Part shown: piece after piece, positions 920-63,700 of the stretch
Position numbering within the stretch: the first letter of the stretch is position 1
How the letters are laid out: each line of letters opens with the position of its first letter
From: Xanthostigma xanthostigma
Lineage: Eukaryota; Arthropoda; Insecta; Raphidioptera; Raphidiidae
Reading direction: 5' to 3'
NCBI GenBank assembly: GCA_963575645.1
Contig: OY754466.1
Location: forward strand, 13,122,001-13,186,000
Length of the DNA: 64,000 bases
Notes under the pieces: model-generated
What the model saw: the letters and a program-made list of their open reading frames with translations, nothing else
What the model was told of the DNA's origin: nothing
Database searches by the model: none
Made by a program: the position numbers and the translations under genes

Positions 920-1514
920 TAATGAGTATTTGGAAAGAATTCCGTGGCATAAGGATCGAAAATGAAGCAATACTGAGACTTTTTTAAACTTGCATTTAAT
1001 ACTAACGTTTCGATACGTTTTGTATCATCTTCAGAGTGTTCAAATGCTGTCACATGTTATCAACACTCTGAAGATGATACAAAACGTATCGAAACGTTAG
1101 TATTAAATGCAAGTTTAAAAAAGTCTCAGTATTGCTTCATTTTCGATCCTTATGCCACGGAATTCTTTCCAAATACTCATCATTAATTGAAGGAGATTTA
1201 TTTGGTTGAGGAACAATTGAAAATAAGCTTTACCAGTGTATCACTTGTGGCCATCGTTTCGAAAAATATATTTTCATCATCAGGGCGTCAATGCAAGTTA
1301 AGATGGTAAATTGTAACTTGCATTGACGCCCTGATGATGAAAATATATTTTTCGAAACGTTAGCCACAAGCGACACACTGGTAAAGCTTATTTTCAATTG
1401 TTCCTCAACCAAATAAATCTCCTTCAATACATATTTTGGAACAAAACTTCTACTAACTCATCATTAACTTCAATGGATCACAGTTACTCTATTTATTGAA
1501 TAGAGTCAATCTTC
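920..1514 (+). mobile_element. Palindromic PLE-like element, family B
   Basis: Inverted arms at 922-1040 and 1062-1180 are near-perfect complements. Each arm holds the core CTGAAGA-T-GATAC-AAAAC-GTATC-GAAACG (1068-1096 on +, 1006-1034 on -). A second element (1187-1455) has inserted at its right end. If that is removed, a tail of about 50 bp follows and the 12-mer ATATATATTATA occurs on both sides (908-919, 1515-1526). The duplication is low complexity, so the outer limits are less certain than the palindrome. Confidence 0.6.
1187..1455 (+). mobile_element. Palindromic PLE-like element, family C
   Basis: Arms 1187-1300 and about 1314-1427 are inverted copies. They are followed by a 28-bp tail (1428-1455). 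ACTCATCATTAA stands on both sides (1175-1186 and 1456-1467) as a 12-bp target-site duplication. The core is CTGATGA-T-GAAAA-TATAT-TTTTC-GAAACG at 1331-1359 (+) and 1255-1283 (-), the closest copy in the window to the canonical hammerhead core CUGAUGA. Confidence 0.7.
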
Positions 1515-1559
1515 ATATATATTATACCTATATAAGCAAATACTATAATAGTGAAACGA

Positions 1560-1645
1560 AAATGTTTAGTGGCTCTTTAAAAAACCGGGAAATATTGTAA
1601 ATTGTAACTTTTGGCTCTTCCGTCTCAAAAGGTTGCCGACCCCTG
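1560..1645. mobile_element. hAT element right end (remnant)
   Basis: The segment ends GGTTGCCGACCCCTG at 1631-1645, the reverse complement of a common hAT terminus (CAGGGGTCGGCAACC), and also found at the right end of the hAT at 62728-63371. No matching left end was found, so it is a fragment. It lies about 100 bp upstream of a cadherin exon. Confidence 0.4.
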
Positions 1646-1747
1646 GCCTATACTGTTCTCCATTTGTGAAGTTGAAAAAGTAAAAAAATAATCGCAGTGG
1701 AAAACCTTGCCAACAAAATAGTGCATTATTTTTCTTTTATTCAATAG

Positions 1748-4700
1748 AACGACTCCGCCATCGTGAATGTAACAGTAGTAAATGTGAACGAGTGGGAACC
1801 GAGATTCAGGTATCCACAATATGAGTTCTTCATCCCGGACGTACATTTGCAAGCCGATCGCAAAGGTTTGTTGGTGGGACGAGTCGAAGCCGCTGACGGG
1901 GACAGAGATGACAGCGTCACGTTGTCCTTAGGAGGACCCTATGCTGGGTGAGTGTTAATTAGGGATTGCTTCCGGGAATTGGGCTTTTGAATGAAATTTT
2001 TTTTGTCATAAATGGAAAGATCGTATATAAGTTTTATAACAAAACTATTTTTCTTTTTTTTATTTTCGTTATAATTCAAAAGTTATATCAAATTAAAAAT
2101 AATTTTTTGTACCCAGTTCCGAGAACGCGCCGACATTTCCCGAACATAATGTGACGTCATAATGTTTTAGTCAATACACAATATGTAGAAGCCATTGATA
2201 GTATACTGCGTATATACATTTTACCATTATGACGTCACAACTGTCAAAAACAATTTTAGTGCGTTTGCAGTCACGTGATTTTGTTTAATATTTTATCAAT
2301 TTTAAATTGCTTATAATTAATTTAAAAAAAGTTTTTTGAAAGTTTTTCGCATCGATTATCAATATTATTTATAATAAAGTTTTAAAATACAATAAAAAAA
2401 TCGATAATTTTTTTTTTCAAAAGCCTAATTCTCGGTACTGAATTTCCCGAGAATTCCCGAGAAATTTCATCGCCTTTAGTACCGAAAAATAAAACTAATT
2501 TCCCGGGAATTCCGGTACTAAATTATACTAATTTAAATATTTTAAGTACCGGGAAATACAGATTCGATTTCAGTATCGATACTGCAAACCCTAGTGATAA
2601 TATAAATAGTTAACTTAATAAATGTTGCAGGCTGCAAATCTTTCTCCATGTCTTCATTGTAAAGGTACTCATTCACATAGGGGTGAACCTACATATTATA
2701 GGGACTAATAGGGATTAGTCCTGGGCCTCCAAGTGTCATTAATCATATTATCGCATGAGTGAATTTTGACAATTTTTTTCATTAATTTTTAAATTTTTTA
2801 TTAAGTGACTTTTAACAATTTTATTGGTGAATTTTGACAATTTTTTTCATGAATTTTTAAATTTTTTAAGTGAATTTTAACAATTTTTTTGGTGAATTTT
2901 GACAATTTTTTTGATGAATTTTTAATTTTTTTGAATGAGTTTAACGATTTTTCGGGCGAATTTTGACAATTTTTTAGGTATATTTTTAATATTATTTGCT
3001 TGTTCAGATTACTAAATTTTTACTGTGATTTTAATGTTATGAAAAATAAATTTTATTTGTTAAATTAATTAATGGGATCCATTGGACTTCAATAAGCCCC
3101 CTATCCCAAAAAACCTAGATCCATCCCTGCTCATTGACGATTATCTGGTAATTGTTTCATCTCACCCTGATTTCATCACAAAGCAATATCCCAGTTCAAT
3201 TACTCCTTCTATACTAAAAACAGAACAAGAAAACCGAACGATGCTTAAAGGTCGCTGCCCGCGAGGCTGGATTTGCCGCTAGATTCCTTGCTAAATTTGA
3301 CTACTAGTTTTCTAGCGCCGGTTTTATGTGCTCGCTTCACAAGAAACGTCTTTTCAAGCTTGTTTTGTGGATAGATGTGGTGCGCGCGCAGTGACAGTTC
3401 AAATATAAACACAGAGAAAAACGTGTCTGCTGCCAGACTCTAAGCAGAATGACGCCGCATGTTGATTTGTTGGCGTTTGTTCAAGTCGTCCACGTGACTA
3501 GATACTGTTTCCTGATTGATTCTTGCTCAGATCATGCAGAGTACCTAGCAAGAAAAATAGCCCCTGTTGTAATTTTAAAATCTATCTTGTGAGCTAAGAG
3601 GCGAGCCCGCAGTGACGTCATTTCCAGCCTCATACCCAGCCTGCCTGCCAGCAGAGGTCCAAGCAGTGTTTCCAGCCTCGTGTGCAGCGGGCTTAATTTA
3701 AATCAAATGTGTTTTAACGTAATTACATTTGATTGTTTTCTGCAGGATGTTCGACATTAACGATAAAGGCGAAATCCAACTTCGAGAGCTGTGGCCACTC
3801 AATACTTCGATAGTGCATCTGGTAGCGATAGCGACAGACGGCGGTGTACCGGCACGTCGAGCCGCCGCCCCAGTGATTGTGCATTTCCCTCCAACGGCCG
3901 TTACCGTTGGCGGTTTAGAAGGACTTAGTGCTCGCGCTTCTTCTACGGGACTTATGATCATCGCAACATTCGCGGCCGTCCTGGCTGTTTTGGCGATCAT
4001 CATTGCTGTACTCGTTACCTACATATGTAAAGTGTAAGCTAAGACATATCAATATTAATTCTTTTTCATCTATACTAATATATAAAGCTGAAGAGTTTGT
4101 TTGTTTGTTTGTTTGAACGCGCTAATCTCAGGAACTACTGATTCAAATTGAAAAAAATGTTTTTTGTTGGATAGCCCATTTATCGAGGAATAGGCTATAT
4201 AATATTACGCTACGACCATTAGGAGCAAAATGTATCTCAAAAATAAGCTTCTATTCATGTGAAATGCACTAACTAGATATACTCATATTAACGTTGTGAG
4301 AACACAACCTCAGGTGGCTCAATCGATTGAGCATGCGACTGTCAATATCAGGGTCGTGGGTTCGAGCCCCACGTTGGGCAATTTTATTTTTTTATTTTCT
4401 ACATTGCTTTCTTCTAAGGCTTACATTTAAATTTATTTAATTAATTTTAAAAAAATTATTAGTTAAAAAAAGTTTAAATACTGCTTTTTATCGACAAAAA
4501 CTTTTGAACGGTAACTCCGATCATCATGAAATTTTGACACAACATTCATCTCGGTAAACTAAGATGAATGTGTGTACTCATGTTCCTCCCTTCCCCAATG
4601 CCATTCGTTCTTTTACACCCGGGTGAAACCGGACAGGACCGCTAGTGGAGGATAAAATTATAAGAAACGCATCTATGTATATTGGACCCCGGTCAAAAAA

Positions 4701-9451: not shown

Positions 9452-9606
9452 TTAGTGCATGTTTCATTTAATGTGAGGTAGACATTTTGCAGATGTCAAG
9501 TAGTTTCATTAATATAAATGAATTAATGAAAACGATACATCACTAGCACACTGGATCGGTCCAGCACGGCTAGACAGAAATTGCAGGCGACCGACTGACC
9601 GGCATT

Positions 9607-10505
9607 AGGTACCTTTACACTTACACGCAATCCCGAGTGATTGGAGCGCCCCGTTCCAATCGAGCGCGAAAGAATGCCAGTGTACATAGGAATAATCGCT
9701 CGGTTTTGGAACGAATTAAAACCTGCAGGATAACCTTACAGGCATTTCACGAGCGAATTCGCGTGTAGTTAGAAAGTACAAAATTTATTTCACGCGTTCT
9801 TCCTTGTGCAGTTTAGTAAGTATACGTTTTGACGTTTGATTAATTGTTTATTTTATAATTAGTTAATTTTGACGATACAAACTTCAAATCTTCAAACGAT
9901 CGACCTGTAGCTAAGTATCTTAAAGTCGTTGCCAACCTTTCTTCGACACCTATGCTTTCACGCATTCGTGTATCTTGTTTTGAAATTATTGGACCAACCA
10001 TTTCCACCAAAATACGGAATGATTCCGGATCCATCCGTACATAATTTTTAAAATCCAACGGAAAATTATCACGCAACTCATGTAATAGAAGCATATACCC
10101 ATATTTGTAGCGATTTTCCTTCCATGTTTTTACCCAACACCTCCTTTTCTGTTTGTGAAAAGGCATAAAGGCCACGCACAAAGCAATTTTTAATTTTCTG
10201 CGTTTTGAAATAATTTTATCCATGCTACTAAATGCCACAAATAACCTAAAACCGTCTCAAAACTGTTAGAATTTTTAAAATTCCACGGTTCACGCCAATC
10301 GCGAGGGAAACTTGACGCTTTTTCATTTACACTAACACTTCTATCCCTTCACGTTCCACGATACACACCAAAACCGCGCGATTGGAGTGTTGCAAATTTA
10401 AAGAAACAAATTTTGGAACGCCACGTTCTTGGCCGCGCAAAAATACGCGCGATTGGAACGGGGCGCTCCAATCACTCGGGATTGCGTGTAAGTGTAAAGG
10501 CACCT
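9607..10505 (-). mobile_element. Defective PIF/Harbinger transposon with HARBI1-like fragment
   Basis: Inverted termini of about 55 bp (starting AGGTACCTTTACACTTACAC; the other end reads AGGTGCCTTTACACTTACAC) are flanked by ATT at 9604-9606 and 10506-10508. Inside, on the minus strand, 10238 to 9840 encodes 132 residues resembling the N-terminal part of HARBI1-family nucleases: RRCWVKTW, then YVRMDPESFRILVEMV, then GVEERLATTLRYLATG. The DDE catalytic half and the MADF partner gene are absent, so it is a deletion derivative. The frame ends at a stop shortly after the homologous part. Confidence 0.75.
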
Positions 10506-12313
10506 ATTGTTGACTTCTGGTTGCAGGTGCTGGTTTACACAAGTTTTGCTCCACAGTGCCGTAACAAGCCTTTTATACGCCCGGTGCAAGCTTCTGTAAT
10601 TTTCCTTTGAAAAATGTTTTAATCTTATCCGGATCTGATATTTCTGCGCCCCTTCAAGGTCTGTGCCCTGTACCTGGCACCGCCCTAGCTACGGCACAGT
10701 TGTTCCATGCTGTGCCCGGTTTTGAAACCCAAAAAGAATTTCCTGAATGATTCCTTTCAAGTTGAGTTGATTTTATTGTTCGCCCGATGTAGGTATAGTT
10801 CAGTAAATGTTATTCCATATTTTAAAAGTGTATACAAATTAAAATAAATTATTATAATTAAAATTATTAAGATAATAATACCTGTAGGAAATTGTCTAAG
10901 TAATTAATAAAATATTTATAACCGTTTTATATAATTTTTATTTTAAAAATCTCAAAACTTTCGAGATCTTACTGAAAATCTATCTCGAAAACTGATTCCC
11001 CCTCCAAAACTACAGCAAAATTTCGAATAAACTAGCGGCATTATAACCAGGCCCGGACTGGTACCTGAAACCGGCCCAGGCATTTTAAAGACGGTTGGCC
11101 CTCTACGAGAAAGAAAAACTACAAATAAATAAAATTATCGACCAATTTTTCAGACAAATATATTAACAAAAAATAATAATTAATACATTAACGTTTCGGT
11201 CCGGATTTGGATCTTCTTCAGAACTGATCTAAAAAAAAATTATATTTTTTAGATCAGTTCTGAATATTATACAATTTATTGATAAAACCTTTTGCAGTAG
11301 TAGTACTGAAAAGATCGTAGGTCTGGCGGTTCTGGGATCTTGGTCTATTATCAATTATAGAGACTTTACTGTGAGGAGCTTTTTACTCATGCTATTTTAC
11401 TAAAAAAAAATAAACAAAAATGTTCATAAATATTGTATGCCATAGAAACATGAATGTTTTTACTTTTTAAGCTCAGAATAGCGGCGCCACTGACGGTACG
11501 CAATAGGCCTGAATGGCACTTTTTAGCTGAAACTAAACCCAAATTAGTTTTTCAAAAACTGTTAATTATGTATGTTTAAATTAGTTTTGTGATTTTTCAA
11601 TTCAACATTTCGATGGTGCCTCCAGCAATACTTGTGACTGTAATTTTGTTTTTTATATTTTTTATCTTTGCTGCCATCAAACATTTTCGTAAGTTGACAT
11701 AAATGTTATTTCTTATTTTTGACAGCTGAGCTATAGAATATATTTTTAAGTTATACACAAGAAAAACTCGAATCTTCACGTAATCTTTGTAGATAATCAT
11801 TTAGAATATCTTGCCTTACTTTTGATGAAACAATAATTTAAAGAGTTACATTTACCTGATATAATATGATTTTATTGAACTTTAAATTATGATAAAAAAG
11901 ATACAAAAGAAGATTTATAGTTTCGTTCACTGCTCATCCCCACATTGCCATAGCGTACCTACCAATATAATAGTCTATGTCGATGGGAACGTTTTAAATA
12001 CCGAGAAGTTCTTTTAAAAGGTTCCTCACTCGCCGCAAACAAACAAATATACAAACTTCTTTATAATATTAGGTTCTACCAAACATGAATCAAACCCATT
12101 CGTGCCTGCGTAACAAACATATCAATACATACGGGTTCAACTGGGCAGCGCGTAAGCCATAAATGCGTTAATGTTGACATTTTATGTCATAAGTATACCT
12201 ATTGCTTGACCGAAGGAAGAACGTCTGTTAAAAGAATGTGCATAGGGTCCATTATTTAGTGAAAACGGCATGAAAACAAACAATCTATTTTTACTTAATA
12301 TGTGTTACATATA
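10506..12313. other. Intergenic, decayed repeats
   Basis: No gene is supported. It contains a truncated family-A palindrome at 11123-11260 and an hAT-like left end (CAGGCCCGGACTGGTA) near 11049. The rest is AT-rich and unassigned. Confidence 0.4.
11123..11260 (-). mobile_element. Family-A palindromic element, truncated copy
   Basis: Holds the family-A arm (AAATTATCGACCAATTTTTC) and a minus-strand core at 11192-11221, CTGAAGA-A-GATCC-AAATCC-GGACC-GAAACG, with one mismatch in the hairpin. Only a stub of the opposite arm remains. Confidence 0.55.
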
Positions 12314-13076
12314 CAGGTGTCCCATTAAGAATGGGACATAGAACAACCGCAGATTCTCCAATTCAAAATAAAACGATTAAGCGAAATATACTTAGATAAA
12401 ATGTTACTCGCTCTACCAGTGGCGTACGGCAGGAGTAAGTAATGCGTGTACCCCTTCTAAATGTTACGCCGCTGTCTAAATTTTAATTTTGACTATAATT
12501 TTAATTTTTTTGATATTTTCTAAGTCAATAATGTACACTTGTTAGTTTGTTGTAAAGTCATTGGTTTTCGAGATATTCGCAGTTAAAGATAGATAGACAT
12601 GTACTTTTTACTTGTATTATTATTAATAATATTCATTTTTACAATTTTGTCTTAAAAAAATGCGAATATCTCGAAAACCAATGACTTTACAACAAACTAA
12701 CAAGTGTACATTATTGACTTAGAAAACATCAAAAAAATTAAAATTATAGTCAAAATTAAAATTTAGACAGCAGCGTAACATTTAGAAGGGGTACAAGCAT
12801 TACTTACTCCTGCCGTACGCCACTAGTAGAGCGTACTGAACTAATTTTTTTATTGTTAGGTGCATTTTATGATATTTAACAAGTCTGCCGATTTGAGTAA
12901 AATTATACGGTGTATTAAAAAAATTATGGACATTAATAACTTTTCAGTTTTCAACTTCAACACCCCGTAATTTGGAAACGAGTAACATTTTATCTAAGCA
13001 TATTTCGCTTAATCGTTTTATTTTGAATTGGAGAATCTGCGGTTGTTCTATGTTCCATTCTTAATGGGACACCCTG
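12314..13076. mobile_element. Foldback element with TATA target duplication
   Basis: Starts CAGGTGTCCCATTAAG and ends CTTAATGGGACACCCTG, flanked by TATA at 12310-12313 and 13077-13080. The outer arms are about 100 bp. A second nested pair of arms (about 12416-12583 against 12655-12830, containing TTTTCGAGATATTCGCA and its complement) makes it a double hairpin. The same terminal type and target site occur at 50568-51584. The class is not recognised and it has no coding capacity. Confidence 0.65.
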
Positions 13077-24013: not shown

Positions 24014-24024
24014 AACATCTATTT

Positions 24025-24320
24025 AATAAATAAAATTATCGACCAATTTTTCAGACAATATATTAACAAAAAAAATATAATTAATACATTAACGTTTCAA
24101 TCCGGATTTGGATCTTCTTCAGAACGGATCTAAAAATATAAAAAAATAATTAATATTTAGTTTCTATTTATTTTTAATGAAATTCGTGAAAGATTTTTTT
24201 AATATTGAAATATTGAAAAAATAATGTATTAATTATATTTTCTGTTAATATATTGTCTGAAAAATTGGTCGATAATTTTATTTATTCAAGAGTTCTACTC
24301 AGACGTTAATCAAAGATTTG
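24025..24320 (-). mobile_element. Family-A palindromic PLE-like element
   Basis: Arms begin and end with AATTATCGACCAATTTTTCAG and its complement. The one-sided tail CAAAGATTTG closes the right end. AACATCTATTT (24014-24024) and AACATATATTT (24321-24331) form an 11-bp duplication with one mismatch. The minus-strand core is at 24093-24122. Confidence 0.7.
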
Positions 24321-27522: not shown

Positions 27523-30500
27523 TTACTTTGCTTTCTTCGATTTGATTTTACGCATGTAAAATTCCAATTCTTTGCCTTCTAGAATGTACCCATCTGCTCG
27601 ACCGCACTGGCCCGGTCTCGACGATAAGCAAGCTGTGAAACAAAGAACGATCAAATTAAAGAACTAATAAATAAAAAAAAAAAAATGTGAAAATGGCTTG
27701 CGGAAAATCATCAAATACACTCAGAGTAACTATGACGGTCTTATCATTGCTCATGCGAGGCACAAATTCAAAACAAACCGTGCCTCAAAAATATGAACTC
27801 ACCAAATATATCATCATAGTGTTGAAAAAAACAAACATCATTAATATAGCAGCTCAAATCTTTGATTAACGTCTGAATAGAACTCTTCAAGTAAATAAAA
27901 TTGTCGACCAATTTTTCTCAGACCATACGATATACTGACAAAAAATATTAAAAATACAAATCAATATAACACAAGATGACATTTCGATCCGGATTTGGAT
28001 CTTCTTCAGAAATATCTAATCCGGATCAAAACGTCATCTTGTGTTATATTGATTTGTATTTTTATTATTTTTTGTCAATATATCGTATGGTCTGAGAAAA
28101 ATTGGTCGACAATTTTATTTACTTGAAGAATATAGCAGCTCCCTTTTTTTATTCCCCATCTACGTTAATTGACGCGAGTGTTCCAACCCCGCGTAAGAAG
28201 TTACGTTAATTGAAAAAAAAATCCCCACTTTAATTAATATATTCACGGTAAAACATTCATTCAAAATTCATTTAAAACACACCTAGCATACGTCCAGTTG
28301 TGAACTGCTCTTCGAGTGCCTGTTCAACTTTCGCTATTCTTTGTCTTGCGGCGTATTTCTTTGAAACTTTTTTACTATGTTTCTTGTTTAACATAGCTTC
28401 CTCAGCTTCCGTCTGAAAAAAAAAGTTTCATTTATGTACGGTTCATTTGGAGTTGGGTATTGTGCTCCAGTATAATAAGTATAAGTAATTGACACTATAG
28501 CGTTTGTTGTACTAAAGTGTAAGCTACACCGACCTGATTGCTATTTCAGTGAAAGTGTCGTACTCAAAACGTACTAGCAGGGCCCGATCGGGGGGGGGGG
28601 GGGGGGGGCAAACCGGGCAATTTCTCGGGGCGGCAAAATTGAGGGCGGCGCGGCGTCGGCGGCGAAAATTTGAAAGATGGTTAAACAAAATTATATTATG
28701 TAAGAATTATTAAGTACTTCTACTTACGAACTGTTTTTCAATTTATTTTTGAATAAATATCTTAAAACGAAACTTATTTTGTTTCATTAATATCGGCAGG
28801 GAAAACTTGTCTTTTTTAAAGGCTAAAATTACACCATCGCATGGGTAAAAGGAGGCAAATATGATTTTGCCCGGAGCGACGAAATAGTTGGATCGGGCTC
28901 CGTTGCTAAGAATCGCTAGCTCGTTAGATATTTTTGGTAAAAATAATGTACACTTTTCAGTGTAAATTTCACTGAGTTGTCTACACTACACTAATATATA
29001 TATATATACGAAAAAAAAATAAATAAAAAAAACAAACAATTAGAGTTGACTTGGAGCAGCAAAAATAGAAATTATAACAGACAGATGGACATCAGAGCTA
29101 TAGCTCAGGGTCTACCAAGTACAAAGCATTAAAAGCGTGTGAGGTATCCGTCATCCATCTACTCTAGGAGTGTCATATGTAGTTATCAACAGGCCCGGAT
29201 TTAAGAATTTGGCGCCTCTAAGCAATTTAAAAAATTGCCACCCCCCAACTCCTGTCCTTCAGTGTGCTACGATTCATAAAAAAAACATGAACTGTCATTT
29301 TAGGAAAACTGTCGATTCCGCGTCGATTTTTTAATATGGAAAATCAAATAAAAAATAGAGAATAGTTACTTCTTACCACAACAAGTTTATTAGTGGATGT
29401 ACATTTCGAGAGCTATGCTCTCATCTTCAGCAATACACTAAACTCAGTTTAGTGTATTGCTGAAGATGAGAGCATAGCTCTCGAAATGTACATCCACTAA
29501 TAAACTTGTTGTGGTAAGAAGTAACTATTCTCTATTTTTTATTAGATTCAAACCACAGTGCTCTTAATATTTTTGTTATGGAAAATCAAACTGATATTTT
29601 CACCAGTTCTCGAATTTAAACCTGGGGACTTCAATACAGGAATCACGAAAACACCATACAAACAACGGCACCGTTACACGTTCAACTATTAGAAATTAGC
29701 CCCTTTGTCTGCGTGTTTGGTTGGAAACGTAAAACTTAGATTTCACTTAAAAAAAAAACTTACCAGTTTGGCTCCACGTTTGCGTCCAAGAGGAAGAACG
29801 TAATGCGACTCATACCACTGCCGGAATGGAGTTGCGTCAATAACAACGATAGCGTTCTTGACCAAAGTCTTGGTACGGACCAATTCGTTGTTGCTGGCAT
29901 TGTACACTACATCGATGACACGCGTCTTACGGGTGCAGCATTCTGAGCCCCAGGCGAAATTACCTTGGTCTAATCTAAGCGCGCGATATTTAGTATTTCC
30001 TCCACGCGTTCTGACACGATGGATACGTTTGGCGCCGAGCTGTAACAAAGATAATTTCAAAAATTCAGTAAATAAATGCACGTGTCACGTTTTCTAAAAA
30101 TTGACACTTCAGAATGTCAATTTTCAACATAAAATTTCTTTCAGAGTAGGTAAGGAAATCATCATTGAAATAAAATCCTTTTTTTTTAAAAAAAAAACAG
30201 GCGTAATTAAAAACAAATGACTATTTACCTTTGTATTTGCGGCTGGACGACCTAATTCGAATTTCCTCTTTTTACGAAGGGGTTTTCTCTTACCTCCTGT
30301 GGCACGTCTTTTGTGCCAATGATCCCGGCTGATACCTAAAAAGTAACAGGAATTTATAGTTTGGTTTGTGCTTAATTAATTGATGAATTATTTATCTAGT
30401 GTGGATTACGAATAGCATCAGTTCGCTGTGAGATTAAAAGTCAACAGAACATTCTGAAAAATAGTTATCATCATTGCTAATTCGCTCGCACAAAATAGAA

Positions 30501-36247: not shown

Positions 36248-36261
36248 ATCCATATTTATGT

Positions 36262-37217
36262 AAATAAAATAGAATAGTCCTAATCCAAAAAAAAAAAAAA
36301 ATTAATGCAATTTATAACAATCGTTTCGACCAAGATCAAGTATAGACGCTGATGACCTCAGCTGTTGAGCGTCTATAATTCACAATCTCTCTCCCTAGAT
36401 CAAGTCATCTTCAGATACGAATGTGTTATTGAATAAGGATTAAGTTTTATCCGTCGATATATGACTTTGATAAACACAAAATGTAGTTTTTGACGTGATA
36501 ACGTCTTATAAATTGATGTATCACCAATCTTATAAATTGATAAAACACCGGCTGCATGCACGAAAAAGTGTAACGTTCCGCCTGACCCTGTGCGTGCTTT
36601 TCTCGAAAACGGCCCTAACGATTTGGATGAAATTTACTGAAAAGGGATTTTGGGGGGCAAAAAATCGTTTTAGCTAGGTCTCATCTCTCGAAAAAATCGT
36701 TTTCATACAAATTTTATCATTATAAAAATCAATTTTTTGACGTATGAAAATACTTAAATATTGTAAATAGGTTTTGGAATTTTATATAAACAGTGAAACA
36801 ATTGTTTTCAAAATAATATGACAGTTAATCTTTGAGACTTAAAATAAATACGAAAGAAAGAAAGTTAAAAAAAAACAATTATATTTTAGGTGGTGAGTAA
36901 TTTTAATAAATAAAATTAACCTAAATTTGAAGCGAAAGATGCAATATCATAGATTCGAATTATTATAATTATTATATAAATTTAGGTTATGTATTACGGA
37001 ATACGTTATCACGTAAAACTATCGTCCGTAAACCGACTTTACAGACAACCAATTTTTTAATTACACATTGACTTTTAATTTACATTCATATCTGAAGATG
37101 ACCTGATCTAGGTCGAAACGATCGTTATAAATTAAATTAAAAATTTTTTTGGATTCGGTCTATTCTATTTTATTTTATTTACAAAAATGCTTAATCCAAA
37201 CTATGAACTCACAATTG
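36262..37217 (+). mobile_element. Palindromic PLE-like element, family E
   Basis: ATCCATATTTATGT occurs at 36248-36261 and 37218-37231 (14-bp duplication). Arms share AAATAAAATAGAATAGTCC/GGTCTATTCTATTTTATTT ends, and a tail of about 35 bp follows the right arm. The right-arm core at 37092-37120 is CTGAAGA-T-GACCT-GATCT-AGGTC-GAAACG. The left arm is rearranged by a small internal duplication. Another element (36492-37052) is nested in it. Confidence 0.75.
36492..37052. mobile_element. GACGTGATAACG element, copy 1
   Basis: Starts GACGTGATAACGTC and near its right end has ACGTTATCACGTAAAAC followed by ACAGACAACCAA, so part of the termini are inverted repeats. Other copies are 39661-40073 and 50637-51202, all inserted next to T-runs. 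The class is unknown to me and there is no transposase. Confidence 0.6.
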
Positions 37218-37464
37218 ATCCATATTTATGTTGGTGGCTTTTACGACAATGGACTATTCCATAATAATTCACTTCATGCCGAAAAGTATACTTTTTAATA
37301 TTAAAACAATAAATAATTCAGCCAAGCCAATAATAAATAAACCACTCTAAAATGAATGAGTTAATTTTGATAAAATATGTACATAAATACAGAATGTAAA
37401 ATATTGTGATGTTAGAACCAAGATTAAAGAAATAAAATTAAAACTTTTTAAAATACCTTTTTTG

Positions 37465-37500: not shown

Positions 37501-40500
37501 CTATTCAAAATGCGTACATTGGTACGGTTCTTTTTTAATTTTCAGTTGGCACTGATCATTTCTATCGAGTGCGCATTTATCCGAAGGATCGTCTGAAAAT
37601 CGAACAGTTTTCTGTGCACTTTCTTTTTTTGCTGCACGACAGGAATCTTGATAGTCGTGTTTCTCCGGAGGGCATTCTTTATTATAGAAATTTTCCGTTT
37701 TGCTACAAAGATCCTGATGTTTAGCCAAAACATTTTCGTAATATAACGACTCTCTTTCTTTAGGATTTTCCACAATTTCATTTTTGCGAGGCATCAAGCA
37801 GCACGGAGGCTCCGGTTTAGGTCTGACCTCTTTACATTCAGTTTTTGGACGATCGCCTAAGTTCGGTTCGTAACGACATTCCATATCGGGCTGTGTTATG
37901 CCAAATTCGGGCGTGGCCTGTTTCGAAGCCTCGGTACGTTCGAAAGTAGGTTTGTCTTCTTTATACGGATCGTAAGGTTCATCCAGTTTGCCGATAGAAT
38001 AGTGACGATCGTGAACTTCAATGTTCGCTAAACATTTCTCCAACGGATCTACAATTTGCTCCAGTTTCGCGCCGATCGCATCTCGGGCTTCTTTCGCATC
38101 GCTTATACGATTTCGTTCCATTTGATCCTATTGAAAAAAATAGAAAAATATACCTAATATTTGCTTAAATTAATAAGAAAAAATTCGCAGGTTTGTGGAC
38201 AAAAGTTATATTTATAAATGTACGACTTTTCGTCTATAAATTTAAATAAATAATTTTCAATTTGTACTTGAAAAAGTCTAAATTTATAGACGAAACGTCG
38301 TACATTTATAAATATAACTTTTGTCCACAAACCTGCGAATTTTTTCTTATTAATTATTATCGATGGACACGATATCTAATATACATTTGCTTAAATATTA
38401 CAACTTTTATGCTTTATCAATGTCGATACTGAATTCTTACCTCAATATCATTCTCCAAAAGACCTTGTTTATAAAGACTGTTCCGTATGTTATCGATGAC
38501 GTGTTGAGGAAATTTATCCGGATTGTCTTGCATATACCGATAAACTTTCAAATCGGCACCCGTTATTATGAATCTATGTTCATTTACTACAATAACATGC
38601 CCCACTTGAAAATCTGCCGGCGTGTAGTAGTCAGGATCATTGAGATCAGTTCCGGGTTTTGGAATAAGTGAACTACGAATAAATTTGCCACCCTGAAAAC
38701 GCCAACAGCTACCGATTTATTTGTTTTTCAATATGAATAAATTAAGAAAATATGTTATTTTTTTATAATAAATGTTAATATAAAACCGCTTCCACAATTG
38801 GGATGTGACATAAAATGATACGATATCTGGTGATAAAAATTTAAACTATAAACACATTACATTTTACACAGTGCTAGTATTACTATATATATTAAAAATG
38901 GTGGATTCGACATTACATTTGACCTAAACTCCGCCCTTATGTCAAATCCCAATGGAAATGCAACTATAATGGCATTAATATTGCAAAGTTGTACGCCGGG
39001 ACACATAAAAGTTTTCGATATCCTTACCGAAAACTTTAAATAAAAAATCACAAACTTTAGATTTGCATTGCAACATCATATTTTATAGTGTAGAGCAGTG
39101 GTTCCCAAATAACAGGTAATCGTGGACCCCTAAGTGAACTAGCTAAGTAGTCGGGGACCCCCGAATACCGGGAAAATTTGCAAAATTACACTTAAATTGG
39201 CACGTTTTTAGCGTATCTGAGCATGTTTTTTGAAATTTTTTAATTTTTTTATTTTTTACCGGCTAGCCGCGGACCCCTTGCAAACTATCCGCGGACCCCT
39301 GGGGTTCCGCGGACCACCTTTTGGGAACCACTGGTGTAGAGTGCAAACAAAAAACTTACAATAATGCCAGAATTACGAATGGGCGGTTCATTTATTTTAA
39401 TCGTTCCGTCAGCCAACGAATAAAAAATAATAAACTTTCTGATTTCATCTTCGGGATGTGAAGACTCCAGTTTAGCCGTGTAACGTAAATACTGACATGC
39501 ATTGATGAGTAGTCGTACTTCGTCTTTCTTCGGACGCTTCGGTAAGCAGGTAATACAAGACTGAAGCGAATCTTCAATTGTGCCGAGACCAGAGGTGTGA
39601 GGTGGAAAGGCCTGACGGGAAAAATAATGTTTTTATTGTTTCGTAAATATATCTATTTTTGACGTGATAACGTCTTATAAATAGATGAAACACCGGCTGC
39701 ACGCACGAAAAAGAGTAACGTTCCGCAAGCGAGAGCGCGATATAAGCGATAGTCTCTCTCTTCTCGCGTGACGTCAGAGAGTAATGTGCGTTCAACATTT
39801 TTTTCGGCTGTTCCAGCGAAAGCTACATCTGACAGATGGCCAGATAAATTATACGGTTTGTTAACAAATATATAATATATATACATTCTTTTAAATGTCT
39901 TTTATAATTGCTTAAAAATATGTATTTTGCTTTGGTTGATCAAATTATTAGTCGGTAAAAATATAGTTTGACAGCTACTAAAATTTAGGTTATGTATTAT
40001 TAAATATGATATTCGAGCGGAATACGTTATCACGTAAAACTATCGTCCGTAAACCGACTTTACAGACAACCAATTTTTTTTTATATCTATACTTTTAAAT
40101 TAAATATAATACAGTTACAACCTCTATAAGTCTAAATTCAAGGGAAACGCTTTTATATGTAACATTTTTCGAGTAAAACATCACTGAAATTAAAATTTGA
40201 ATCTCCTTAAATCTTAGTTCATACTTTCTAGCTGCAATAGTGACAGTGGTTTCTACATAAACTATAATGAGACTTGAGAGCAGTATATCTTGGACACTGC
40301 TGAACCGATTCCCATCAAACATGGCTAAAAACTATGTCGCAAATACCAACTTTCAATGAAATAGAGATGGGCACATGAGAAACGTAATATAGATGGCAGC
40401 AGGTATATAGCTACTTAAGTTATGATTGGTTTTTATAGGAAAACGCGCTTTTTCCCTTCTGATAGCATGCAACCATTTCTTTTTCAGTTCCAAATCTTTT

Positions 40501-49165: not shown

Positions 49166-49169
49166 TTAA

Positions 49170-50567: not shown

Positions 50568-51584
50568 CAGGGTGTTCTACAAGCTCTATGACAAACTTTG
50601 ACAGATGGTAGGTCACTTGATTTTAAACATATTTTTGACGTGATAACGTCTTATAAATTGATGAATCACCAATCTTATAAATTGATGAAACACCGGCTGC
50701 ATGCACGAAAAAGTGTAACGTTCCTAACGTTCGCCTGACCCTGTGCGTGCTTTTCTCGAAAACGGCCCTAACGATTTGGATGAAATTTACTGAAAAGGGA
50801 TTTTGGGGGGCAAAAAATCGTTTTAGCTAGGTCTCATCTCTAGAAAAAATCGTTTTCATACAAATTTTATCATTATAAAAATCAATTTTTTGACGTATGA
50901 AAATACTTAAATATTGTAAGTAGGTTTTGGAATTTTATATAAACAGTGAAACAATTGTTTTCAAAATATTATGACAATCTTTGAGACTTAAAATAAATAC
51001 GAAAGAAAGAAAGTTAAAAAAAAAACAATTATTATTATAGGTGGTGAGTATTTTAATACATAAAATTAACCTTTTGAAGCGAAAGATCCAATATCATAGA
51101 TTCGAATTATTATAATTATTATATGTAGAATTTAGGTTATGTATTACGGAATACGTTATCACGTAAAAATATTGTCCGTAAACCGACTTTACAGACAACC
51201 AATTTTTTTTTAATAAACATGGGTCCGATTCGTTTTTGTTTATAAGTTACAAGCATTTAAAGAATCAAAAACGTAGGCTGATAAATAGAAATATCGGTTG
51301 TTATGACAATAATAATTAATTGTTAGTGTCATTTTAATTATTTATTAGATATTTCGTGTGAAAGTTCTAAATAAAAAATAAAAGCTGAGGGTGGACATTT
51401 CAAACAATTTTTATGGTCTTAAGTTTTGTGATTATCATTTAAATAAAATTTTTATTGTTAATTGTTAATAAAGGTTAAATGCTTGTAACTTCTAAACAAA
51501 AACGAATCGGACACATGTTTATTAAAAAAAAATATGTTTAAAATCAAGCAGCCTACCATCTGTCAAAGTTTGTCATAGAGCCTG
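50568..51584. mobile_element. Foldback element with TATA target duplication, nested
   Basis: Starts CAGGGTGTTCTACAAGCTC and ends with the complement of CAGGCTCTATGACAAAC; TATA at 50564-50567 and 51585-51588. Long arms resume around GTCCGATTCGTTTTTGTTTA and its complement. Same terminal style as 12314-13076. Confidence 0.65.
50637..51202. mobile_element. GACGTGATAACG element, copy 3
   Basis: About 560 bp, nearly identical to 36492-37052, inserted in the left arm of the foldback element 50568-51584. The opposite, uninterrupted arm shows the site before insertion, within a T-run. Confidence 0.7.
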
Positions 51585-51703: not shown

Positions 51704-54700
51704 TTAAGGTCTTGACCCACGAGCTGCTTCTTCTAAAGCCCTAACTTTCAATTCCCTCTCACGTTGTTGTCTAAAAGATATCAATCTACAGTGTTAATCA
51801 GTTTCCATAATATCGCAGCGACAACGCATGTAAAAATCGTAATTACCTTAAATATTCCTCGTGATGTACCACCATCGACGGATGAGGAAACCGTTCTCTA
51901 TCGAGTAGCATTTGTCTTTGTAACTGCTCATGCGCCGCCGCCTGTAATTCAACATGAATGCGTTTTGTTATAATAAACAGATGAAAAGCAGTGACAAGAG
52001 TACTTTAAAGAAAAAAAAAATTACAAAAGTGGATAGTCTTTTTCGTTAAGATAAAAAATTGTTCATTGGCAGCGTTAGTGATAGATTTGTACCTAATATA
52101 CCACCAGCGCCATATTTCTGAAAAGCTGCCCCATGGAGACTATAACAAAGAGCACAAACTCCGGGTATATAAAAAGCTTCCTAAAATAAGAGGTCACTGT
52201 TGTTCTGTACGTGCCGAAACGATGGTGGGCTATGGTACTAAAATCATGGAGAATTCTTCGAAAATTAAATCAAATTTGGTTTCAATCTGCTCATCCGTTT
52301 AACCTGTACCGTGCTCACAGACAAACAGACGCACAAAATTTTTCCAAAAATACATTTTTTGGATTCTGAAGACCTCAAAACGAAAAGATATTGTAAAATT
52401 TTGACCTAAACTAGTACCATTCCCCACTTGTGGGTTGGAATAGTAATATATACCTATTGTTGTGATTTTGAATTGGCATTCCTGTCTGGGAGATACAAAT
52501 GTCAGTTAAAATATTTCTTATCTTGATAGCATATTAACGAGCTTTAAAATTTACGTGTACGATTTACGAAATAATAATGAATAGAGTAAAATAACTTTTA
52601 AAAAGTTGTGCCATTATGCAGTAATGACTGACATCTAGCTGTGAGAGGCAGCACATGTGGTAGGTACAAATTAAAAGTGTTACTTCTTTAACAGCTAACG
52701 AATGTATTAATCTCTGGAAAAAATCTCATTCGGTGTTCATTTAATGAATACAGGTATGCAAACACGTAAGGTACACATAGGGAAATTAACATTGGGAAAA
52801 AATGACTGGATCACAGTGAGCCTTGAAATCTTGTTTTTCAATTTGACAGATAATATTCTTTTGCAAAATTAATGTGTATACTACCGAAGAAAATATTCAA
52901 ATGATTACAACATAATCAGACTTTTTTTATTAATGGGACATTAAATTCCCAAAAATACTTAAATATGGTGCGAGATCAAATATCTTCGCTTATTCATGTT
53001 GAACCTAAAGACATTGGGTCACTGAATTACCAACGCGCATATGTCATACCAGTCAGACAATTTTTGAATGAAATGTTTCCAAACAGATGGAGTTGTTTTT
53101 TTGTTTTATTTTAGTACAAAAAAAGTAAAATAATGATTTATAAGAGCTTTTTATTATTAAAAAAACCAAGTAAAATAAAAATAAATCAAAATATAATAGA
53201 AATCCTCAAGATTACCACGATAATTTAATACAAATAACAATTAATGCAGTCATGGCTAAATCTGATCCAAGTATTTTTTCCCAATGCTAATTTCCCTATC
53301 TGCACCTTACGCGTTTACATACTGTATATGCAACCAGTAATAGTTGTTCTGACCTCATGGTGTTATTTTTTTTATTAAAGAATTTATTGGCTTTTGTTTT
53401 CAAAAACAGTCAGGACAATGTGGTGTTGTTATTAAAAAAAAGAAAGTAATAAAGAAAAAACTCACTAATATTACCTGATGTGCCAGTTGATCAGCATACG
53501 GTCTTCCCAGTAGGTCTTGATGATGCAACGCCAGCGCGTCTCTGCCGGGCATTAAACTAGGTCTCGGATATCCCGGAGCACCCGACGCTAAAATCAATAT
53601 TATGAATGTGTGACTCATTTAACTCAGTTTATTTATACAGTTTATGAGGCATCGTGTCGGGGTCCTTAGCAAAAACAAGTTTGAATCACACTTCAAAAAG
53701 TTAGTTGATACATTAAACAATTAAGAAATTTCCACTCGACGAAAATAGTGCCACGTCATAATAATAATAACCTTAAAAATGCTGAAAGAATTATTTCGAT
53801 ATCTTTAAATTCAACAGAGATAGTCAATATTTTCTATGTGGATCCGCAAACGAGACTGATCGACGTCTGGTCGACCATTATGACTTCCCGCGGCACAATG
53901 CGCTACATTAGTAGTTATAGTAACTAATAAGTAATAATATAGTAAATCATGAATCCAAGATATATTCAGAATATGTAAAACATCGTAACTGGCTAAGTCC
54001 ATAGTTTCTCAACCTTTTTATATCCATGGACCACCGAAAAATCACAAATGTTTTGTGGACCATCAACATTGGAATAAAATAATAAATATTTATATAATTG
54101 ATTTTTTATTAAAAACAATAAATTTTGCAACACCATATGCTGACATAACAATATTTAAGTATTCAATAAATAAAATTATCGACCAATTTTTCGGACAATA
54201 TATTAATTGGATTATTTTTTATATTTTTTAGATCAGTTCTGAAGAAGATCCAAATCCGGATTGAAACGTTAATGTATTAATTATATATTTTTTTGTTAAT
54301 ATATTGTCTGAAAAATTGGTCGATAGTTTTATTTATTAAAAAGTTCTAATCAGACGTTAATCAAAGATTTGAATATTTAAGTATATTAAAACAGACAGTA
54401 ACAAAAAAATATAGTTTAAAAATCCGTAAAATACAACATCCCAAAAATCTCCGCGGACCACCGGTTGAGAAACTATGTATTAAACTGTTCATTCACTGTT
54501 GCCTTCATGACTTGCGTCAGATCGACCATGTCGTCCCGCGGCACAATGTGTCATACTAGTAATCATAGTAACTCATAATTAATAATAATAAATTAAGTCA
54601 TGAATTTAAAATATATTCAGATAATATGTCAAACATCGTAACTGGCATTTTTCATATCTATTAAAATATTCATTCACTGTTGCCTTCATGATTTGCGTCG

Positions 54701-57700: not shown

Positions 57701-60700
57701 ATTTATATCTCATATTGCAATACACCAAACAGTTTACCACATATCGTTGGCAGAAAAGAGATACTATATAGAAGTTCAATCCTGTGTTATATTTGGCGAT
57801 CACCCCAAATCGCAATTCCCACCCCAATTGCATTTTTCATAATTTTTTATTAATTAAAAAAAGAAAAATACACAGAAATTGATGAATTTCTTATATTTAT
57901 TTTCTACGGTGTTTAGATAAACGCTCAAATTTACTTCTGAAGATGAGAGATGGAAATATACATCCCCCACCTCTGTACACCGACACTAAGCCTCGATCGT
58001 TCTGTCATCTAACAGAAACAAGACAAACTAAAATTTCCGGCCACACTGTTACATTCTATACAGTATCTCTTCTGTCATTGGCTTGGACTATAAACCAACC
58101 TAGCTTCAGTTTTAGCCACATTTTAGATATTGACGACGTCTGTTAAAAAATAAACCTATCCATGCTTTAGCAAAACAAAATCTCCAAAAGATTTTCCTTC
58201 AATCGTGCCACACGTAAACCAAGCAATATGCTTTCTTTACAGTAGAACCTCGTTGAAAAATTGACGTTATCGAGTTTTTTACTTAAAGCGATTTAGTGAA
58301 AAACTGAAGTGAAAATTAATAAAGTTGTTGGAAAAACCTTTTGTTTGTATACTTATTCACGATAACTCACTGATAATTCTTTAAGTTTGGAGGTCACCAA
58401 AATATTATTTTAAGTTATCGGGGGAAAACGCTCAAAATATTTGTTTAAGTTACTGAGGTTTTGTGCTTTAAGAAATGGAGGTTTTAGGCTTTGAAGGGAA
58501 GGGAATTCAAAAAATTTTTAAGTTACAGAAGTTTTTAACTTATCGAGGTTCTACTGTATATTGAAGATATTCTGTTTATACTGTTTCCTGTAAAATTGGT
58601 AGTTCTGTTGTTATCGGATTTAGAGTCTAAGCTAACAATGTTAATTTCACAGAAACAAGATACTACTCACCTTAAAGCAGGAGTATCGGCATATGCACCT
58701 CCTCTCGAAAATCTGTCATACGGCGATGTGATTGTCTCGATCGGACCTCTCGATGGCGGCTTAACGTCCGGTTTATCTGGCGTTTGGATTTTACGCTAAA
58801 AGCAAGTGAAAAGCGTCAAGTCTCTCCACATTTTCCAGCGGAATCTCACTAATCTGGCGCCTTCAGTTTCAAGGAAGAACACACGGAAAATCCGTCGAAT
58901 GACAACAAAATGTAGTTTAGATTACAGAGTAGCTATTTAGTATTTGGATAAAAAACGCAGGACTACTGGCAATGTCGGACAAAAATAAAATATGATGAAG
59001 TTAACGGGATACAAGGCAAAATTTTAAAACAAAATTTATTTAATAACACTTCATTTAATAGTCAACGTTTCGGCAAACAATTATTGCCTTCTTCAGGACT
59101 TTAAAAATGTCTATTAACAGTCACAAGTTAAAAACATAAATTAATTTAAAAACATGATTGTCCATCATTTAAAAATTTTTAAAAAACTAAACTTCATAAA
59201 AATAAAAAAAACTTTAAATTTTTTTTTTTTTTTAAATATATCCTTGGCACTTTGTAAAATTTTAATATTTTTTAATCAGAATATTAAAATTTTACAAAGT
59301 GCCAAGGATAGATTTAAAAAAAAAAAATTTTAAAGTTTTTTTTATTTTTATGAAGTTTAGTTTTTTAAAAATTTTTAAATGATGGACAATTATGTTTTTA
59401 AATTAATTTATGTTTTTAACTTGTGACTGTTAATAGACATTTTTAAAGTCCTGAAGAAGGCAATAATTGTTTGCCGAAACGTTGACTATTAAATGAAGTG
59501 CTATTAAATAAATTTTGTTTTAAAATTTTGCCTTGTATCCCGTTAACTTCATCATACCATAATACCAAGGTGTCTTATTTTATTTTATAAAAACAAAATA
59601 GTAAATCAACATAGCCAACCTGTTGGGCATGCGCGTGCGCACTAGCTTGTTTTTCTCTCTCCTCTCTCTCCCGTTCGGCTTGTTTGCGCAATCTCTCTTC
59701 GCGTTTACGCGCCAACTTCGAGTCGGGAACAGGTTTGAAAGTGAGATCCGTTCGCGTACACGAATTGTAATCGCCTCTGTTCCAGTGTCGCAAAAATATT
59801 GCCGACTGACTCCTGTGACATTCCGTGTCTTCTATCTTTGGTTCCGGACTGGGTCCTCGCGGTATGATATGAGTCGGCGAAGGTATTTCTTCTTCGACAG
59901 GAGATTCTGAAATATTGGACTGGCCGCTTGACGCGTGACTAGCAGAGTGACTTTCGCTGTCGGAAGTGTTTAATAACGGTAACGGTGTTCTCGGTTCCTG
60001 TTTTATTTCATCCGAATGTGCAGAATGTCTACCGTGATGACCTGTTGGTATATAAAACAGACGTTTATGTCACTATCTTACCAAACACTAACAGCCCATA
60101 GAGATCACAAGGAAGGGTGGAAATATCGATAATACTGATATATCGATAAAACTATATTGGGTGTCTGTTTTACAGCGGATTCATGAGACAATACAAGGTG
60201 AATATCTAGTGACTTTCTTTTGAAGGCGGTCCAATTTTTTTTAATTTTTATTTTTAGTGGTTTTGTAATGTTGTTTGAACGTTATTAACCGATTTCTTTT
60301 TTATTTAATAACTAGCGGTCCCGTCCAGTTTCACCCGGGTGCAAAAGAACGAATGGGGAAGGGAGGGACATGAGTAAGCACATTCATCTTAGTTTACGGA
60401 GATGAATGTTGGGTCCAAATTTTTTGCAGTTTTCGGCAGTTCTCTGCTTTATTACTTATTTTAAACTCAAACCTCCATTTTTGATGAAAATATTTTTTTA
60501 AGTAATAATTATTTCTTTTAAATCAATAATTACTGTATAATTAATAAAATATAATAAATATTTAATTGAAAACACTGTAGGAAAATTATTTTTATATAGG
60601 TATAGGTACTGTAATAGTTTTCAAATGAGCTATTATTTAGATTTATTTAATTTTAATTAGTCGTAAATAAAACTAAAATAAATTTAAATGATATCCTTAG

Positions 60701-63700
60701 AAGAAAGCAATGTAGAAAATAAAAAAAACATTAAAAACATATTCGTCCAAGGTGGGGCTCGAACCCACGACCCTGAGATTAAGAGTCGAGCGCTCTACCG
60801 ACTGAGCTAACCGAGCTCTGTACGTGTGCAGCTAACATTGGGATATTCAGTTAGGGCATTTCACCTGAATATAAGTATGTTGTGAAAAATTTTGACTGAC
60901 ATTCTGCAACATTTTTCATTGATTTTCCGCTCTTATTAGTCGTAGCGTGATATTATATAGCCTATAGCCTTCCTCGATAAATGGGCTATCCAACAAAAAA
61001 AAATTTCAATTCGAACCAGTAGTTCCTGAGATTAGCGCGTTCAAACAAACAAACAAACTCTTCTGCTTTATATATTAGTATAGATATTTGAATACTAAAC
61101 TAGAAATACTGAGCAGACTTTAATAAAAATTATATGGAGCCACCACGACATTTTTCTAAACACGAATCAAGATCATTCAAATCGGTTTACTCCTCCAAAA
61201 GTTAAGACTAAACGTACAAAAAAATCACTTGATATTAGGAAAAAAAAAAAAAAAAACTTCCGAACCGATAAAATTAAAATTTATATTGGGACTGTTCTGT
61301 CATTTTCCTGAACACAACGGCATCAAAATTTTTTAAATCGGTCAACCCCTCGACAAATCGACATAAAAGTTTTTTTTTTTTTTGTAATTAATGCGTCAAT
61401 CCTCAAGGTGAAATGGTATGAACACGTTTCGAACAACGAACTTTGGAAACGTGCATGGCTTGAACAAATCTGTGTAACTATAAAACGTAGGAAATGCAAT
61501 TGGATAGGACACACGCTACGAAAGACAGATGACGACATAGCAAAGAGAGCCTTGGATTGGAACCCACAGGGATACCGAAAAAGAGGCAGACCAAAAATAT
61601 CCTGGAGAAGAACTGTTCGTGAAGAAGTTATGGAACAAGGAACTACCTGGCTTCAAGTCAAACATATGGCAAAAGATAGGACTAGATTTAAAAACTTCAT
61701 AGAGGCCCTATGCTCCACTTAGGAGTTAAAGGAATTTATTATTATTATTAATGCGTCAAAGTGGCAACCGTCTTTTTTCGAAAACGGTTAAAAAGTTATT
61801 TTTTCAAGTGATTCGAACATACTTTGCATCTGCATGGGAGAGCTGGTAGGCGGCAGCATTTGTCCGGCGGCTTGCGCTTGCTGCAGGCTGGCGGCCTGAG
61901 CGTGAGCCCTAAGCGCCTCTAGCGAACTGCTCGCCATCGCGGCCGAACCCAAATTCATTCCGCCGAGTGCCGGATGATGTACCGGGGGCTGTATCATGAG
62001 GGGATGAGGAACGACGCCCGGCGCCGTCGGCACGGGTTTATGCTGCTGCTGCTGCTGCCGCATAGCCGCGTGCTGAGCTGCCATTATGTGCGACGAGGCC
62101 GGCGACAGTCGCTCGTGGTGATGCGAATGATGATGCGTGTGTTGATGCGTCGATGTCGACTGGGAACTCGACGCCGACAAAGTTTGAGAAATCGAGGCGT
62201 GTGGAGAACTCGTCCTCACCTGTTGATAGTCATATGCGTTTTTGCTTGAATCCTTATCAAGAATACGATCGACTTTTTTAAACGATTTTGAACAGAAACA
62301 ATTTTGCTACAGAACTTGTGACAAAAATACATGTTTTATTAAAGTAGTTAACAAGAAATATTTTTAATTTTTGCAATTACGCCTGTAAAAATATATAATA
62401 CGTGTTTGTTGGTCATTCTATAGAACGGTTCTAGAGCTCTTCGGAAATGAACTATTAGAACCAAACCAGAATCGTTAGTTGTAGTTAAAATCAAATACCA
62501 AATGTATCCACAGGTTTGCTTTTGAGTATCAATGTGGGTCGGGTTAGTTTTCGAATTGTACGGTCTTTTTTTATTGCAAATTAATATAATTATATATTTG
62601 AAGTATCTTAATATTATCAAGATATTTCAAATCTTTTCTTAACGTCTGAATAGAACTCTTCAAATAAATAAAATTATCGACTAATTTTTTCAGACTATAT
62701 ATTGACAGAAATTATAATTCAATAGATCAGCAAGGGCCACTAAATTATGAACAAGTGCGGCCCGCACTTGTTCATAATTTTAAAAATAGGTATGTATTTG
62801 TGATATTAAAAATTCGAAAACATTTCATTTGAATTTTATTAAAAATTTAACTGAGAACTTCAAAATAGAACTGCTTTTACAAAAATTAGTGTGACGTTTG
62901 AGATTGTATTTGAGTGGCTATTTGTGGTATGTTAGCTTCCAGGTTTGTAGTTGCAATTCATAGAATAGCTCTCAAATGGCTCATCTGTGAGACAAGAAGC
63001 ATATTTATTTTTTCTGTAATTGAGAATCGAAAAGGTTTGTTCGTATAAGTAAGTACTACCAAAAATTGTAATTAATTGCAGAGCAAACCTTTTCAATTCG
63101 TCAAAATTAGATGACAAGCTGACATAAAATTTAACAAGATCTTTGATTTCAAAGAAAGAGTTCTTGAGAGTATCATTAGATTGGAGATCAATCACGTTCA
63201 TTTGTAAATGACTAAGTACATCCTCAATATGATAAGAAAAAGGATTTGCGAAAATTAATTTAATTATTTGTTTATGTAGGTAGGTATAGAAGACTTTTAT
63301 TTATAAAACAGTCACGGGCCGCAAGGTATAGGTTCGCGGGCCGCATGCGGCCCGCGGGTTGCCGACCCCTGCAATAGATGAAGAAGGTCCAAATCTGGAC
63401 CGAAACGTCATCGATTGAATCACAATTTTATAATTTTTGTCAATATATAGTCTGAAAAAATTGGTCGATAATTTTATTTATATCACGATACATCATTTTA
63501 TGTTAAAATGTAAAACTCGTTGTTTAAATTTCCCGCTTTTTGGAACCTCGCGCCTGGTTGAAGCTGGAAGATGTTGGCTTCAATAGTTTTATATTGCGGT
63601 AGTAAATCCTGGGATTATTAATTTTAGACTTGAAACCGAGTTCTAACAGTACGAGAATTTTACAAACCAATAAGCAGTTCTAAAAACTCGAATAGTCTTG

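Follow-up and report, generated by a model that had tools for sequence, protein, structure and literature searches.

Minimal type I hammerhead ribozymes of Penelope-like elements (PLEs) reportedly have their primary descriptions in Cervera and de la Pena (2014) and Lunse et al. (2017). The parts of published accounts that treat these hammerheads place them in the pseudo-long terminal repeats (pLTRs) of PLEs, without helix III and in thousands of copies per animal genome (PMC7761336, PMC6155905, PMC7229834), and a passage of one review calls their role unknown (PMC7761336). In the template RNA of PAc from Anolis carolinensis, as given in a portion of PMC11167929, the core reads CCU, CUGAGGA-U-G...C-GAAACGUC-AGG, including an extra base before stem II, and this hammerhead cleaves in the presence of protein. 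Penelope families of Adineta vaga have one-sided tails and target duplications in the sections of PMC3846280 that describe them, and the PLE tail and target duplication also appear in parts of PMC11167929. Here we describe a 64,000-nt window (the whole stretch analyzed; Xanthostigma xanthostigma, Raphidiidae, assembly GCA_963575645.1, contig OY754466.1, positions 13,122,001 to 13,186,000 of the forward strand) whose palindromes look like broken copies of several PLE families and share one core motif. We consider it very likely that this motif is the hammerhead fold of a PLE, a judgment that covers its identity and not cleavage in the cell. The finding is a further case of the already known minimal PLE hammerheads, real and well supported: as in the portions of the literature cited above, the core lies in pLTRs, helix III is missing and thousands of copies are dispersed. 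No defining difference was seen, and the present set includes families with a U3-A8 core and a few that seem to keep stem III.

The original prediction had described palindromic families sharing a hammerhead-like core. An inverted-repeat scan of the window located arms at the positions that it gave, and the hairpin stems that it quoted are present in the sequence. The elements and their cores (the latter from a motif scan, with strand in brackets) are as follows.

919–1183: E1, head-to-head element; arms 919–1040 and 1062–1183, 99% complementary, with a core in each arm.
1006–1034 (−): E1 core, left arm, stem II GATAC/GTATC.
1068–1096 (+): E1 core, right arm; predicted cleavage between 1098 and 1099.
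1186–1455: E2, head-to-head element; right tail 1429–1455; target duplication ACTCATCATTAA at 1175–1186 and 1456–1467.
1255–1283 (−): E2 core, left arm.
1331–1359 (+): E2 core, right arm.
11192–11221 (−): solo hammerhead core of the 24025 family.
24019–24292: E24, PLE remnant; core in the left arm only; 93–96% identity to the flanks of reverse transcriptase (RT)-endonuclease-like frames L104 and L106.
24093–24122 (−): E24 core.
27856–28129: E27, head-to-head PLE remnant; left tail 27856–27883; target duplication AATATAGCAGCTC at 27843–27855 and 28129–28141; 91% identity to the flank of RT-endonuclease-like frame L103.
27980–28009 (−): E27 core; the right arm ends inside the hairpin (truncated).
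29342–29576: E29, head-to-head PLE remnant; right tail 29549–29576; target duplication TATGGAAAATCAAA at 29335–29348 and 29577–29590; arm 100% identical over 103 nt to repeats beside the L029 RT and GIY-YIG frame.
29402–29430 (−): E29 core, left arm.
29460–29488 (+): E29 core, right arm; predicted cleavage between 29490 and 29491.
36254–37217: E36; inverted arms 77% complementary and 759 nt apart; right tail 37189–37217; target duplication ATCCATATTTATGT at 36248–36261 and 37218–37231.
37092–37120 (+): E36 core, followed by self-complementary ACGATCGT (stem III); predicted cleavage between 37126 and 37127.
38168–38384: E38, head-to-head PLE remnant; right tail 38356–38384; target duplication ATTTGCTTAAAT at 38159–38170 and 38385–38396; 98.8% identity over 83 nt to the flank of RT-endonuclease-like frame L108.
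38268–38297 (+): E38 U3-A8 core; stem I GTAC/GTAC; predicted cleavage between 38299 and 38300.
54157–54371: E54, PLE remnant of the 24025 family; right tail 54346–54371; target duplication AATATTTAAGTAT at 54150–54162 and 54372–54384.
54239–54268 (+): E54 core.
58991–59556: E58, head-to-head element; arms of 241 nt, 99% complementary.
59066–59096 (−): E58 core, left arm.
59451–59481 (+): E58 core, right arm; predicted cleavage between 59483 and 59484.
62657–63488: E62, decayed PLE remnant of the 24025/27856 group, with no full core.

The core is strongly overrepresented. The pattern CTGANGA-N{8,30}-GAAAYG has 13 exact matches in the window, compared with a mean of 0.22 and a largest value of 2 in 100 dinucleotide shuffles. 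Twelve of these lie in the 20 arms of the ten inverted-repeat elements; one further arm has a U3-A8 core and seven have none, so that the statement that each arm carries the core holds for the larger part of the arms only. The thirteenth strict match is the solo core at 11192–11221, which was missing from the earlier list. Grouping the elements at 24025, 27856, 54163 and 62628 as one family is likewise correct in part: 24025 and 27856 have a common stem II, but 27856 represents a sister family about 73–76% alike in the flanking repeat, and the 62628 element belongs to the 24025/27856 group but has no full core. Across the genome (623 Mb, 28 contigs), a pattern with one A or T before stem II, CGAAACG after it, and G and C forced at the foot of stem II gave 16,719 matches (8,350 + 8,369), against 7 (2 + 5) for the reversed pattern. 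Adding the U3-A8 pattern brings the exact-pattern cores to about 21,700, spread over dozens of families of which most lack stem III. The CUGANGA and GAA boxes of a hammerhead are thus both present, with UUGANAA in one group of families.

The extra base before stem II, originally judged not canonical, is the same base as in the Anolis PAc hammerhead, and one- or two-base insertions at that place were already known. Genome-wide it is A or T in 16,719 cores and G or C in 315 (both patterns fixing G and C at the foot of stem II), and it is missing in 80 (control 31). Two core families among the matches listed seem to carry G there (CTGAAGAGGTCGACACACCAGTCGAC and CTGAAGAGGGCCATGG...GGCC).

Both stems covary across families. 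Forty places were fetched after being chosen by eye for differing stem II, before their flanks were seen, a choice that may favor good stems; the 39 families come from 74 distinct copies among 92 matches, grouped at a flank identity of 60%, with single linkage joining the 24025 and 27856 groups as one (L001). All 39 representatives were kept, though L010:2870 and L030:3730 resemble chance matches. At pairs 2–4 of stem II, 99/117 cells are paired (5,000 shuffles: mean 47.6, maximum 66), and the 45 unique cores among the first 100 matches listed, which serve as an unselected check, have 116/135 paired (2,000 shuffles: mean 48%, maximum 61.5%). A 25-row alignment (A1; 89.2% of cells paired vs. 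50.1% when shuffled) was composed of rows picked after viewing and is an illustration only. Stem I, overlooked in the original prediction, covaries in the register predicted for a hammerhead: the triplet immediately upstream of CTGA pairs with the triplet that starts two bases beyond GAAAYG. With the 3′ strand beginning there, pairs 1–3 are formed in 89/117 cells, compared with 35–53/117 at eight other offsets and with a mean of 50.2 and a maximum of 67 in 5,000 shuffles. This register therefore marks the hammerhead cleavage site GAAAYG-U16.1-H17, and representatives have U at 16.1 in 36/39 cases and H at 17 in 37/39; A15.1 is fixed by the search pattern and so is not independent evidence. Absence of covariation, which had been named as what would speak against an RNA fold, is therefore not what these families show.

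Stem III is a different matter. A stable one, expected in a canonical three-stem hammerhead, is seen in 3/39 families, and we therefore file the motif as the minimal PLE variant and not as the canonical form. In these three (window 37092, L054 and L057) the place of stem III is taken by a stretch that, judged by eye, is self-complementary, with the best stem I directly beyond it. A two-pair stem III in every family, such as AC[GTTA]GT in E1, was considered and rejected as a rule because the register test puts cleavage two bases past GAAAYG.

Parent elements carry the same core. L029 contains an 804-codon frame with a reverse transcriptase (PF00078, 3.1e-11) followed by a GIY-YIG domain (PF01541, 1.2e-5); cores pointing in the same direction flank this frame and are identical to the cores of window 29342–29548. 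In L034, a frame with RT and GIY-YIG lies between two outward-facing cores, and the two loci thus display the direct and inverted pLTR orders around a coding frame. The presence of RT and GIY-YIG in one frame is direct for the E29 family and extends by similarity to that frame to E24/E54, E27 and E38. Searching the genome with the RT-endonuclease segment returned at least 95 matches (E up to 1e-5, 31–100% identity), with 94 of 1,547 first-look candidates scored. For ten of these matches we inspected the 700 nt beyond the end. A strict core is present in 3/10 (L103, L104 and L106), and a core with one or two altered bases in 6/10, some of which resemble chance. After the matches L102 and L110, the core starts CCGAAGA (U4 to C) and has three stem I pairs, a possible further core variant. 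In all, four window families match the flanks of PLE RT-endonuclease frames at 91–100%, including E54, which like E24 is 93–96% alike to the flanks of L104 and L106. The suggestion that the cores are those of PLEs is borne out, and the palindromic families, first described as unrelated, are probably different PLE families.

The core of E38 had been called degraded. It reads TTGAAAA, with C3 changed to U and G8 to A, and retains five stem II pairs. Its relative L108, 246 nt after the RT-endonuclease match, has identical core letters, with 98.8% identity in the flank. We read it as a compensated U3-A8 core, which supplies an equivalent of the tertiary C3-G8 pair of hammerheads. Genome-wide, positions 3 and 8 are C-G in 16,719 cores, U-A in 5,014, C-A in 499 and U-G in 807, while G-C (7, control 12) and A-U (32, control 23) are at background level. 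Two independent changes on C-G copies would yield about 24 U-A copies, versus the 5,014 seen. The single changes C-A and U-G look like scattered copies of known families among the 100 places listed for each, and U-A has families of its own (seven among 15 places examined, with stem I paired in 16/21 cells). An 8-row tree places the RT pieces of the two U-A families sampled as sisters with support 100/98; they are 57% identical. We think it rather probable that a whole PLE clade runs on a U3-A8 hammerhead, kept in thousands of copies while the RT diverged to 57% identity. Natural U3-A8 hammerhead variants were reported in 2011, with several examples in the part of PMC3088659 that presents them; the replacement of C3-G8 by U3-A8 is the same there, whereas here there are 5,014 matches in one genome, with two families beside PLE RT-endonuclease-like frames. 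In an in vitro survey of another hammerhead, as far as the relevant section of PMC9901934 goes, only the G-C swap restored activity, a result that stands against taking a U3-A8 clade to imply cleavage. Taken together, stem II covariation, a covarying stem I, three putative stem III families, the paired change of C3-G8 to U3-A8 and the parents with RT and GIY-YIG uphold the original proposal of selection on a hammerhead-type RNA fold in PLEs.

Several observations weigh against the PLE hammerhead reading. Rfam, proposed earlier as a check, yielded no hammerhead hit, whether at gathering thresholds across the window or, with E up to 5, on 700–1600 and 12 loci, so that its hammerhead models do not recognize the motif. 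(MicroRNA matches in the low-threshold runs were taken as hairpins matched by hairpins.) Stem I is short: at least three contiguous pairs occur at the expected register in only 21/39 representatives, pairing declines to 18/39 at pair 4 and 10/39 at pair 5, and L001, which represents the abundant ATCC-stem group, has one pair and the E29 group representative two. L046, by contrast, has a stem I of 6 bp. A free offset search also yields 3–5 pairs at odd offsets (L041, L010:2870 and L030), and the evidence of the stem III families is for that reason weaker than the register test. Among the parents, L109 has no core within 700 nt of its RT-endonuclease match. Flank comparison made no tie of E1, E2, E36 or E58 to a PLE frame. 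Part of L037 is 84% alike to E2 and part of L032 76% to E58, similarities that do not by themselves make such a tie. Since the two sampled U-A families have sister RTs, the U3-A8 switch may be a single old event and not many. In a transcript of a whole palindrome, the arms could pair together and compete with the ribozyme. Finally, for PAc, the available portion of PMC11167929 reports that cleavage was seen only with protein, that insertion in vitro did not need it, and that RNA-seq showed no ends at the cleavage site.

Some of these points suit a reading that agrees on the identity of the motif and differs on its function, namely that the hammerhead fold now persists as a signal for binding or priming by a PLE protein (RT or endonuclease) and not as a working ribozyme. 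PAc insertion in vitro proceeds without ribozyme activity and PAc cleavage occurs only with protein (PMC11167929, in the portion cited), stem I is short, and Rfam fails to recognize the fold. A binding site, however, need not keep U16.1 and H17 or change positions 3 and 8 as a pair, and the PAc authors, in the part of PMC11167929 that discusses binding, hypothesize a protein-binding motif in the first 172 nt of the open reading frame. We regard this reading as unlikely, although it retains more weight than the two considered below.

Insertion marks bear on whether the palindromes are instead DNA transposons (miniature inverted-repeat transposable elements, MITEs), whose hairpins would be terminal-repeat or transposase sites with an incidental RNA-like core. 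Short, near-perfect inverted arms and target duplications do look MITE-like: 6/10 window elements have an exact 12–14 bp direct repeat at their ends, compared with 4/400 random flank pairs with 12 or more, and no exact direct repeat of 8 or more was found at the ends of E1, E24, E58 and E62. However, all six elements with a target duplication have a tail of 26–29 nt between one arm only and the repeat, the combination known from PLEs. Among 24 head-to-head pairs (20 fetched and four from the window), 15 have a repeat of at least 10, and 12 of those 15, E2 and E29 included, also have a one-sided stretch of 25–36 nt. Spacer length differs between copies in this set, the arms match the flanks of RT and GIY-YIG elements, and stem changes are largely compensatory, all of which leaves a MITE origin very improbable. 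Least probable of all is that the core is part of a protein-coding signal, since stem pairs covary across 39 families and, although CTGAAGATG includes an ATG and the PAc frame begins at stem II (PMC11167929, in the portion cited), frames opened at that ATG close within nine codons (E1) or four (E29).

The arrangement of copies resembles that of known PLEs. In 22 cases, neighboring cores among the first 100 matches listed are less than 1,500 bp apart, of which 20 are head to head, two direct and none tail to tail. Adineta vaga Penelope elements, in the sections of PMC3846280 that bear on this, share RT and GIY-YIG, direct and inverted pLTRs, target duplications and head-to-head copies with the elements described here, and have a one-sided tail of 31 bp where those of the window are also one-sided; copy number is low there, in contrast to the 40 of the first 100 cores listed here that sit in head-to-head pairs. 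PAc, in the corresponding part of PMC11167929, shares CUGAGGA-U-stem II-GAAACGUC, the 3-bp stem I CCU/AGG, the extra base and the lack of stem III. It differs in that the PAc frame starts at stem II, whereas the L029 core lies outside the frame, and in that PAc cleavage was measured, whereas that of the window cores is predicted from sequence. For the head-to-head form, self-priming is proposed in a passage of PMC3846280, and cleavage with extension of both strands is demonstrated in one of PMC11167929. Because our pairs were picked for compactness, which limits spacer length, their centers support no conclusion between complementary DNA self-priming and extension from both DNA ends. At L089, a head-to-head pair has an extra central core ending GAAACA (last base changed), as nested or repeated priming might leave.

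We infer the following route for a PLE hammerhead of this kind. The minimal core runs from a 3-bp stem I through CUGANGA, the extra A or U, stem II, GAA and A-YG-U-H; stem III is slight or absent, and the predicted cleavage follows H17. Copies in tandem would be transcribed together, and the core of each repeat would free the units; L029 has a core on both sides of its RT and GIY-YIG frame, and tandem transcripts would therefore be cut once per unit. A single core, weak for want of stem III, may cut as a dimer or with the RT-endonuclease protein of the element bound, help of both kinds being described in parts of reviews and of PMC11167929. If reverse transcription begins within the RNA past the core, as in the relevant part of PMC11167929, an outward repeat and tail would be left. 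The palindromes are best read as insertions of several PLE families, shortened at the 5′ end and placed head to head, so that the 3′ part (hammerhead repeat, then tail) faces outward on both sides, and the window copies are probably passive remnants.

The window holds other features. At 12316–13073 lies a nested inverted repeat that resembles a DNA-transposon-type insert; its outer arms (95 nt) start GGTGTCCCATT, its inner arms measure 176 nt, and the core scan found no core in it. The 132-aa open reading frame at 9840–10238 (−) seems similar to the beginning of a Harbinger-type transposase. Two distant sites (36504–36549 and 50649–50694) share a nearly identical 24-bp tandem unit, and at gathering score Rfam gives a single hit in the window, a tRNA at 60744–60816 (−; 32.9 bits).

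The U3-A8 group is the most interesting part of the finding, and it carries a lesson: apparent degradation of a core may in fact be compensation. The roughly 21,700 cores in dozens of families, with the U3-A8 group among them, form a natural mutagenesis set with which to ask which parts of the motif selection keeps. If a U3-A8 clade exists as proposed, selection in the living element would be maintaining the minimal PLE hammerhead's tertiary fold and, probably, its cleavage.

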